Of a stretch of 64,000 nt of DNA, positions 8,834-12,657 are shown in pieces; position 1 is the first letter of the stretch, and each line of letters opens with the position of its first letter. A program made the translations under genes and the position numbers. The DNA comes from Sulfuricurvum sp. (lineage in GTDB: Bacteria; Campylobacterota; Campylobacteria; Campylobacterales; Sulfurimonadaceae). The notes under the pieces are model-generated. The model had not been told where the DNA came from. It saw nothing but the letters and a program-made list of their open reading frames with translations, and ran no database searches. The stretch spans positions 1 to 64,000 of the forward strand of contig JAQTTG010000002.1 in assembly GCA_028710885.1 (NCBI GenBank), in the 5' to 3' direction.

Positions 8834-8841
8834 ATGGGTTT

Positions 8842-8862
8842 CGGGACTAATTATTTGTCCCG
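8842..8862. terminator. Inverted repeat between convergent genes
   Basis: CGGGAC and GTCCCG flank a 9-nt loop in the short space between the cupin stop codon and the convergent lipoprotein gene, overlapping the latter's stop codon. It could terminate both transcripts, but neither side has a T-run. Confidence 0.4.
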
Positions 8863-8978
8863 CGAACAACACGTTTAACGTCATCGATACCATCACCTAC
8901 GCCATTACTAAACTCTTTTGCAGTGCATCCGCCCAAAATAAACATTGCCATTACAAACATAATTCCTAAACGTATCAT
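8847..8978 (-). CDS. Entericidin-like small lipoprotein
   Basis: A 43-residue reading frame starting ATG with AGGAG 5 nt upstream. It has the basic-hydrophobic start MIRLGIMFVMAMF and the lipobox ILGGC (lipidated Cys18). The 26-residue mature peptide contains GVGDGIDDVKRVVRG, resembling the G-x-G-[DE]-x-I core of EcnA/EcnB entericidins. A TATAAT box lies at 9005-9010 on the same strand. The lipoprotein call is firm; the entericidin link is by resemblance only. Confidence 0.78.
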   Translation of the reverse strand: MIRLGIMFVMAMFILGGCTAKEFSNGVGDGIDDVKRVVRGTNN

Positions 8979-9004
8979 CTATTCTCCTAATTATTAATAA
9001 TGCA

Positions 9005-9705: not shown

Positions 9706-9897
9706 ATGGACGGAAAAGAACGCAAAAATATCATGTCGGGCAAACGGGTGAGCATCGTCCTCAAAGAGGATCAGAGAACGGGGAAACTAACGGAGGGGAT
9801 CGTCCGCGACATCCTCACCAAATCACCGAATCATCCGCACGGGATCAAAGTACGGCTTATGAGCGGGGAAGTGGGACGAGTTAAAGAGGTGTTTTGA
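9706..9897 (+). CDS. YwbE family protein
   Basis: A 63-residue protein with the YwbE (DUF2196) pattern: KRVSIVLKEDQRTGKLTEG followed by ILTKSPNHPHGIKVRL and GEVGRVKEV. Length matches Bacillus YwbE. It looks like one small beta-barrel; the function is unknown. AAAGGA lies about 7 nt before the ATG. Confidence 0.88.
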   Translation: MDGKERKNIMSGKRVSIVLKEDQRTGKLTEGIVRDILTKSPNHPHGIKVRLMSGEVGRVKEVF

Positions 9898-9917
9898 AGA
9901 ACTTCATTCTTTTTATA

Positions 9918-11111
9918 TCATGTTTTAAATATTGAAGGATACAAATCGTTTATGAAAACGATATGTCCTTTTTGAGGAAGTAATTTGTCTATCAAGAAAG
10001 TATCCAAAGCCCCATAAACACTCCCACCAAATGGAAGCAAATCCATTCCAACTCCAATGCCCCATCTTATTGTTTTTCCGGATGTTGAATTAACTAAAGA
10101 AGCCATTTTTTCTCTATAATTATTTATCTCATCACTAATTTCATCATCATTTAGGCTATCAGTTTGCTTTAACCACATTCTAAACAATTTACATTCGTTA
10201 CTTTGTCGTATTTCAAGTAATTTTTCAACATCAATGCTACCAATAGTATCAATCTTTGGAAAATCTTTAATCTCCAATATTCTTTGCATTTGACACTCTG
10301 TTTTTTGAGGTGACAAATCTCTTTCTAAGAAAGCCAACTTATCTTCAAATAAAGGAATCTCATTTCCCATAAAACCTGATAATGCATTATGAAACTTCAT
10401 TTCTTCTATTTTTTGATTCAAAGTTCCAATACTTAATAATGATGTTTCGATAACTTTATGCGTATTTTCTTTATTTAAACCAAACTTACTTTCAATATTA
10501 CTTTCAACCAAAAAATCATCTTCACTAAGCTGATGCACAGTAACGTCAAGTTGTTTTGATATATTCTCAAAGCCATATATTTTCATTAAAGCTCTGCTAA
10601 GATGTTTTTTCACTATTTCTTTTCTAAGAATTTCAGATTTCATCTGTTCAATCGATTTATTTCCAAAATCATTAGGCAAACGAGTTAAGTTATCTATAAT
10701 AGAATGCTTAAGTTTGATTTTTTGTTTTGTTGAAATTTTTGGAATTTCATCAGTAATCTTCAAACAATCGCTTACATATTTTTTATCATCAGCAGATTTT
10801 ATAGATGAAAAAGAAAATGATCCAAGTGGCAAAATTTCTCTGCCCTGATTATGACGTAAAAATGTTTGACCAATTTGTCCAATTGAATTTGCTGTAGCTT
10901 GAATTTTAAATATATTTGCATCGAGTAGTTTTATTAAACCTTCGTAACCAAAACAATCAATTAAATATGGAATTTCTTTTAACCGTATCGAATCAAGTAT
11001 ATAAGTCTCAAATAACAACAGTCGTTGCAAGAAAACGTCGAAATCAAAGCGAATGGAATTTTGATCGATCAATTCCGCACTACGCGCAATTAATCTATTT
11101 TGTATATCCAA
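9918..11111 (-). CDS. Unknown AT-rich accessory protein
   Basis: A 397-residue protein I do not recognise. It is Ile/Lys/Leu/Asn-rich and mostly helical in appearance. Near the C-terminus (about residues 345-385) a Gly-rich hydrophobic stretch, WGIGVGMDLLPFGG then GALDTFLIDKLL, could insert into or lie on a membrane, and the tail is HIVFINDLYPSIFKT. No nuclease, ATPase or binding motif is evident. The start is TTG with GAGG about 6 nt upstream. Hand counts give 16/60 and 20/60 G+C in two stretches of the gene against 29/60 in the neighbouring magIII, suggesting acquisition. No mobile-element genes flank it. Confidence 0.8.
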   Translation of the reverse strand: MDIQNRLIARSAELIDQNSIRFDFDVFLQRLLLFETYILDSIRLKEIPYLIDCFGYEGLIKLLDANIFKIQATANSIGQIGQTFLRHNQGREILPLGSFSFSSIKSADDKKYVSDCLKITDEIPKISTKQKIKLKHSIIDNLTRLPNDFGNKSIEQMKSEILRKEIVKKHLSRALMKIYGFENISKQLDVTVHQLSEDDFLVESNIESKFGLNKENTHKVIETSLLSIGTLNQKIEEMKFHNALSGFMGNEIPLFEDKLAFLERDLSPQKTECQMQRILEIKDFPKIDTIGSIDVEKLLEIRQSNECKLFRMWLKQTDSLNDDEISDEINNYREKMASLVNSTSGKTIRWGIGVGMDLLPFGGSVYGALDTFLIDKLLPQKGHIVFINDLYPSIFKT

Positions 11112-11196
11112 TTTAAGCCTCTATTCATTGTCAGTTTTCAGTTTAATGTTCAATTATATCGAAAATGACAGTCATAATAAAAAAACAATTCAAAAG

Positions 11197-11847
11197 TCAA
11201 ATAATTGAGCTAATCCGCTCGATATTCACCACTTTCCCCCGACTATTCCTCTTCACATACTCCACAATCATCCCATGAAACCGCGCAAACGCGGCAGGGA
11301 GTTGAACCGTATCGAAATAGCCTCGTATCCCCGCTTCGCACCACTCCTGCAGCTCATCATAGCTCTCAAACTCATATCCAAACGCGTTTAACAATCGCGC
11401 AGTATAGGCATCGACAACCATAGCTGGACGAGCACACGCATAACAGAGGATACTATCTGCCGTCTCGGGACCGATTCCCTTTTGCGATAAGAGCCATTCA
11501 CGATCAACAGCGAGGGCAAAACTCTCGAAATCGCCATACTCGTCGATCATATTGTGCGAAAGGCGGATGAGATTAGACGCTTTGGCTTTGAACAACCCGC
11601 TCGGACGGATCAGCTCCATCAGGATTTCGCTATGCGTTTTGGCGAGGAGATCGGGGGCTAAAATCTCCGTATTTCGGAGATTATCGAGAGAGATTTGAAC
11701 TCTCTCCCACTGGGTGTTTTGGGTCAAAATTGAGCCGACGACGACTTCAAAGGTTCCATACGCAGGCCACCACAGCGGCGGAGAGTTTTCGAGAAGTTTC
11801 AGTTTTTCGAGTGCGCTAAAGAGTTCAAATGAATCGGAAAGTTCCAT
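11197..11847 (-). CDS. magIII: 3-methyladenine DNA glycosylase, MagIII type
   Basis: A 216-residue member of the endonuclease III superfamily that removes alkylated adenine in base-excision repair. It resembles Helicobacter MagIII throughout: PLWWPAYGTFEVVVGSILTQNTQW, then REWLLSQKGIGPETADSILCY (the helix-hairpin-helix), then VVDAYTARLL. The residues after the hairpin carry the catalytic Asp (VVDAYT). The C-terminal FCL cluster of EndoIII is absent, as in MagIII. It directly follows the ymdB-type gene with no gap. Confidence 0.88.
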   Translation of the reverse strand: MELSDSFELFSALEKLKLLENSPPLWWPAYGTFEVVVGSILTQNTQWERVQISLDNLRNTEILAPDLLAKTHSEILMELIRPSGLFKAKASNLIRLSHNMIDEYGDFESFALAVDREWLLSQKGIGPETADSILCYACARPAMVVDAYTARLLNAFGYEFESYDELQEWCEAGIRGYFDTVQLPAAFARFHGMIVEYVKRNSRGKVVNIERISSII

Positions 11848-12657
11848 TTATTCCTCTACCCATGCATCAGTGCGAAATACCCGTCCGTCATCGAAAATTT
11901 TGAGCTTGAAAGCATCGGTGCATTGCCCCTCTTCGAGGTTCATAATAGCGATTTGGAGGATTTTTCGGCATTTTTCGGGAACTTCAAATCGTCCCGACAC
12001 TCCTGTGATAAAGCGCTCCAACGGAACTCTCGAGTCCATTCCGATCACGTTGTCACGGCAACCGCTCAAACCGATATCACTCATATAGGCTGTCCCGTTT
12101 GCGATCTGAAAATCATCACTCCCCACATGGGTATGAGTTCCGATAATCCCGCTCACTTCGCCCGCGAGCAACATCAGCATAGCGCGCTTTTCGCTCGATG
12201 CTTCGGCATGAAAATCGAGGAAGATATGGTTGATTCCCTCATTTTTGAGACTTGCCACACTGTCGCGGGCGCATCGGAATGCATTATCGACGTAGGGCAT
12301 ACCATAGTGCCCCATGATGTTCAGGACAGCGAGTTTCTCCCCCGCCACATCAAAGACACGACATCCCGTCCCTTTGACGCCCTCAGGGTAGTTATGTGGA
12401 CGCAAAAGCGGCAAAGACTCCAACAACGGTTCGATCTCTTTTTTGTCCCAAGTGTGGTTTCCGCCGCTCATGCAGTCGATCCCCATCTCAAAAAGTTCCT
12501 TGGCATTTTTCATCGTCACACCAAATCCGTGAGAGGCATTTTCGTAGTTGGCGATAACGAAATCGATCTCGTGTTCACGCCGAAGCTTCTTTAAATGCTC
12601 TTTGATCATCATCCGTCCCGGACGACCGACAATATCGCCTATAAACGCTATTTTCAC
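11848..12657 (-). CDS. ymdB: YmdB-type metallophosphoesterase
   Basis: A 269-residue protein of the TIGR00282/YmdB family. Metal ligands are visible in FIGDIVGRPGR, ANYENASHGFG, SGGNHTWDKKE and FLDFHAEASSEK, followed by GTHTHVGSDD. Bacillus YmdB hydrolyses 2',3'-cyclic nucleotides and affects RNase Y and biofilm; the role here is inferred only. It starts at GTG in a GTGA overlap with the preceding membrane-protein gene, implying coupling. Confidence 0.9.
   Translation of the reverse strand: MKIAFIGDIVGRPGRMMIKEHLKKLRREHEIDFVIANYENASHGFGVTMKNAKELFEMGIDCMSGGNHTWDKKEIEPLLESLPLLRPHNYPEGVKGTGCRVFDVAGEKLAVLNIMGHYGMPYVDNAFRCARDSVASLKNEGINHIFLDFHAEASSEKRAMLMLLAGEVSGIIGTHTHVGSDDFQIANGTAYMSDIGLSGCRDNVIGMDSRVPLERFITGVSGRFEVPEKCRKILQIAIMNLEEGQCTDAFKLKIFDDGRVFRTDAWVEE

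Follow-up and report, generated by a model that had tools for sequence, protein, structure and literature searches.

The DNA analysed here, a stretch of 64 kb referred to as the window, belongs to a 2.64-Mb Sulfuricurvum genome. Between ywbE and magIII, two genes conserved in the genus, it carries one AT-rich gene, hereafter the cargo gene, which encodes the protein P0001 (Table 1). By scan, no terminator-like site lies between the start of the cargo gene and the stop of magIII.

Table 1. Genes and intervals at the ywbE-magIII locus (window coordinates).
Feature	Position	Strand	Remarks
ywbE (DUF2196), left border	9706..9897	+	Conserved in the genus; converges on the cargo gene
Gap between ywbE stop and cargo stop, 20 bp	9898..9917		Without direct or inverted repeat marking an insertion edge
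AT-rich cargo gene (P0001)	9918..11111	-	397 aa, TTG start; without known family
Gap between cargo start and magIII stop, 85 bp	11112..11196		Holds AGAGG at 11118-11122
magIII-type HhH-GPD DNA glycosylase, right border	11197..11847	-	Core gene in the genus
ymdB	11848..12657	-	magIII-ymdB junction used as control for the variable slot

The G+C content of the cargo gene is 0.295 (29.5%), compared with 0.45 for its flanks and 0.416 for the window, and its GC3 is 0.204. Among the listed window ORFs with 150 codons or more, none is lower in either G+C or GC3. In 1194-bp sliding windows over the 64 kb the cargo ORF stands at z = -3.3, and the minimum outside it is 0.345. When the interval was shuffled 1000 times with its dinucleotides preserved, the longest ORF had 152 codons versus 397 in the real sequence, and hence the frame is not a product of chance. 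An AGAGG ribosome-binding-like site on the minus strand is spaced 6 nt from the TTG, and this TTG aligns exactly with the ATG of the relative P0002 described below, which together support the assigned start. The cargo ORF is a real gene. The initial annotation had described a TTG-start protein of 397 residues encoded by visibly AT-rich DNA; the same ORF was recovered, and two of its four hand counts were recounted and reproduced (16/60 in 10561-10620, 20/60 in 10801-10860).

The interval was compared in genomes of the genus sampled at one per species. In 33 of them, the source genome counted, ywbE and magIII adjoin on one contig, with a distance from -5 bp to 6412 bp (6.4 kb) between the two genes. 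This interval measures at least 300 bp in 23 of the 33 genomes and less than 200 bp in the remaining 10. Wherever magIII and ymdB were both seen, their junction measures -29 to +150 bp. Because this junction is near-constant, the size variation belongs to the ywbE-magIII slot. The ORFs in the slot fall into 38 families, 29 of which are found in a single genome, and the cargo gene is the sole member of its own family. It is absent from the slot in all 32 other genomes, which are empty or otherwise filled at this position; the genome closest by magIII identity (G013, 90%) holds a VanZ-like gene instead. Presence, absence and replacement among these genomes, none of which has an orthologue at the locus, strongly back the proposal of a lone cargo gene in the initial annotation, which had itself suggested this comparison.

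Judged by sequence matches, known defence systems of several distinct types occur in the slot across the genus. In G017, a match to NsnA/NsnB/NsnC is accompanied by a DndC-like gene (E for the whole set down to 1e-118), G031 carries an Mrr type IV restriction gene (4e-55), and G033 encodes a Fic protein that matches the candidate-defence model PDC-S04 (2e-49). G016 contributes an NNH3-domain NACHT protein, whose gene adjoins a pentapeptide gene. HEPN/nucleotidyltransferase pairs occupy the slots of G010, G011, G020 and G031, and two further pairs appear toxin-antitoxin-like by eye (RelE/ParD-like in G007, BrnT/BrnA-like in G036). Other cargo is not defence-related: three genomes have an aldehyde dehydrogenase together with DUF779, four have VanZ-like genes and two a methyltransferase, and small exported proteins occur as well. 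The G+C content is 0.33 for the NACHT gene, 0.27-0.31 for the NsnABC/DndC-like genes, 0.27 for a TM-pentapeptide gene and 0.32-0.40 for the VanZ-like genes; the aldehyde dehydrogenase cargo (G011, G035) has 0.46-0.48 as opposed to 0.29 for the cargo gene. In a comparison of the slot ORF families, no relation between the cargo protein and other cargo was found, and a match of 13 bits to a nucleotidyltransferase cargo was disregarded.

Some of these loci show additional detail. The G017 cargo forms a 5.6-kb block between the core genes (L065:1074-6688), in which NsnA/NsnB/NsnC matches share the space with an unidentified gene of 249 aa and a DndC-like gene in convergent orientation. The NACHT gene of G016 and the pentapeptide ORF downstream of it (L064:1842-4553) share a strand, are separated by 135 bp and may represent a single gene split by a frameshift. 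Within the window, a short minus-strand ORF at 8840-8979 resembles a small lipoprotein (about 43 aa, LGGC-like lipobox). The slots of G009, G018, G030 and several other genomes contain similar sequence, and this small lipoprotein-like gene apparently shifts its place at the locus.

The cargo protein itself gave matches at chance level only in searches of Pfam, NCBIfam, PADLOC, PHROGs and PDB sequences. PADLOC models yielded zero matches to P0001 or P0002 up to E = 10, and P0002 likewise lacks a family match. P0001 also matched phrog_14003 (E 0.004), a hit that P0002 lacks and that was dropped as a family assignment. The protein had been annotated as belonging to no recognisable family, and this stands, since no fitting family and no housekeeping match arose. 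The same annotation had called its Gly-rich C-terminal tail membrane-seeking, a description that does not hold. For a transmembrane helix, a Kyte-Doolittle value of about 1.6 over 19 residues is customary; the corresponding maximum is 1.1 in P0001, located in the C-terminal stretch, and 0.9 in P0002, so that no segment of either protein reaches the required hydropathy and neither shows a conserved transmembrane helix by this measure. Furthermore, the Gly-rich segment is not conserved, and P0002 has a different, longer one in its place. The replaced segment is flanked by ALD[TS]F[LV]IDKL and KGHI[VA]FINDLYPSIF, which are kept in both proteins, and the residues invariant between them include some in FHNALSGFMGNE and FINDLYPSIF. 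Comparable motifs may occur in unnamed bacterial proteins. The cargo protein is probably soluble; a mainly helical fold can be suggested only weakly, because AlphaFold2 on the single cargo sequence failed (pLDDT 34), and this model was set aside.

A search of 397 Campylobacterota genomes returned P0002 of genome G468 as the sole true relative, with 63% identity over the full length. Weak matches (E 1e-3 to 0.05) to a chemoreceptor in G136 and an alanyl-tRNA synthetase in G160 were read and judged to be chance, and still weaker ones occurred in G374, G424, G454 and G562. Further searches over overlapping Campylobacterota genome sets found no third family member, and collections of plasmids, phages, genome contigs and viral contigs gave no relative. 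Both genome-contig scans and five viral-contig scans were seeded by short exact peptides and miss diverged sequences; therefore, diverged relatives may exist outside Campylobacterota. Over 397 codons, P0001 and P0002 differ with dN 0.27 and dS 1.40 (dN/dS about 0.19), and their differences are distributed as 119/66/178 over the three codon positions. These values mark the cargo protein as being under purifying selection.

G468 belongs to another family of Campylobacterales and to a different genus from Sulfuricurvum. There, the P0002 gene (GC3 0.20) has a pentapeptide-repeat gene on one side and a DTW gene on the other. No relative lies near the DTW gene in 10 other genomes of the G468 genus. 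The pentapeptide-DTW interval comprises about 40 bp in G371 and only a few in G252. In G329 two AT-rich genes fill it, in G286 a different AT-rich gene and a nucleotidyltransferase/HEPN-like pair. Because this interval varies as well, the cargo family is represented by a solitary gene in each of two variable slots that are unrelated to one another. P0002 thus resembles P0001 in its full-length identity, start, low GC3 and lone position in a variable slot, but differs in genus, in chromosomal site and in the segment that replaces the Gly-rich one. G468 also encodes a 366-aa RelA/SpoT-domain protein (L103:7747-8847), usually with a pentapeptide gene following it; the RelA/SpoT-domain gene is found in most examined genomes of the genus, and its distance to the neighbours shifts.

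How cargo enters and leaves the ywbE-magIII slot can be approached from its surroundings. No tRNA gene lies within the 64-kb window and no repeat pair bounding the cargo gene was found. The initial annotation had seen no transposase nearby, and indeed a scan of the first 18 kb that took in all flanking genes but some small ORFs detected no integrase or transposase. Neither was an integrase seen among those cargo ORFs of other genomes that were searched or read. The slots of G015, G016 and G017 (L076, L064, L065) contain an extra magIII 3' end, which may mark an earlier insertion or recombination event. These duplicates cover approximately residues 175-216, are 62-78% identical and are accompanied by a 100-aa ORF that also adjoins magIII in G036. 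In G010 (L067), ywbE is present in two copies, both intact (94% and 92% identity to the ywbE of the source genome), and between them lie the aldehyde dehydrogenase gene, DUF779 and nucleotidyltransferase/HEPN-like genes. By tblastn, the slot of this genome also contains a weak HAD-like match. Duplicated magIII 3' ends and a duplicated ywbE, together with the missing integrases, tRNA genes and repeats, are suggestive of and fit recombination in the flanking core genes, and we infer this to be the likeliest route of swapping.

The ywbE-magIII slot is a fresh instance of an already known type of hotspot, while the family of the cargo protein is uncharacterised. Mobility proteins are missing from 27% of the hotspots described by Oliveira et al. 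(2017; PMC5635113), for which recombination at flanking core genes was inferred and recombination or repair genes were noted as flanks. The slot shares with such hotspots lacking mobile elements its core borders, fast cargo turnover, lack of an integrase or tRNA gene, and a DNA-repair gene at one border. Those hotspots, however, were defined within species, whereas the slot was compared across species of one genus. Flanking-core-gene recombination was also considered for the core defence hotspots cDHS1 and cDHS2 of Pseudomonas aeruginosa (PMC10250203), which likewise have fixed core borders and hold varied defence systems amid numerous genes without known function but no single mobile element. 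In contrast to their median sizes of 26 and 6 kb, the slot measures 0-6.4 kb, is often empty and includes plainly metabolic cargo.

Taken as a whole, the data make it very likely that the cargo gene is accessory, horizontally acquired cargo in an exchange slot. A chance open frame in AT-rich DNA, or a mispredicted gene, might account for the TTG start and the missing family match, but this is refuted by the shuffles and by a full-length relative, 63% identical, that shares the start. Since the hosts of P0001 and P0002 belong to the same order, the gene could also have descended vertically in Campylobacterales, have been lost almost everywhere and have become AT-rich through drift. Only two true matches among several hundred Campylobacterota genomes, chromosomal neighbourhoods that differ between the two genera and a site that holds other cargo in close relatives render this history highly improbable. 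Low G+C content, orphan status and sporadic distribution would also fit a morphogenesis or regulatory gene left from a decayed mobile element or prophage, with no present function for the host. We regard such a relic as improbable: relatives were found neither in the phage and viral-contig nor in the plasmid collections, the slot is without any other phage gene, and a dN/dS of about 0.19, measured across two distant genomes, speaks against decay.

The function of the protein is less clear-cut. A niche-adaptive or metabolic accessory gene might merely ride in the slot, which does admit cargo of this sort, namely the aldehyde dehydrogenase/DUF779, VanZ-like and methyltransferase genes. We consider this reading, the main rival to defence, the less likely of the two: the cargo protein matches no enzyme family, its gene is much more AT-rich than the aldehyde dehydrogenase, and low G+C accompanies the NACHT, NsnABC/DndC-like and TM-pentapeptide cargo, albeit the VanZ-like genes too. 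Because defence-related genes form a large share of what else occupies the slot, an argument from location only, defence is the best functional guess, and the defence effector considered in the initial annotation is plausible. Against it, several cargo genes of the slot are not defence genes, and neither the P0001 nor the P0002 gene has an obvious partner from known defence. By analogy with its slot neighbours, the cargo protein might therefore tentatively be seen as a single-gene protection against phage or foreign DNA, at somewhat less than even odds. That it founds a new single-gene anti-phage family, unrelated in sequence to catalogued systems and exchanged via small slots without integrase in environmental Campylobacterota, is a bolder and doubtful proposition.

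Our preferred explanation combines cargo exchange with defence, and we give the two, taken jointly, a probability of about 0.5. The cargo gene, very likely acquired horizontally, is the sole occupant of an integrase-free slot between the core genes magIII and ywbE, where DNA from relatives would be exchanged by homologous recombination within these flanking genes. Its soluble product would act alone, protecting the cell against phage or other foreign DNA.

Such hotspots seem to be little studied in environmental Campylobacterota, as a literature search on genomic islands of Sulfuricurvum yielded nothing on them. An unexplained orphan becomes a testable candidate, which appears constrained and horizontally moving, occurs in two unrelated slots and has neighbours that are often defence-related. 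For these bacteria, the ywbE-magIII slot itself is a convenient hunting ground for undescribed defence genes.
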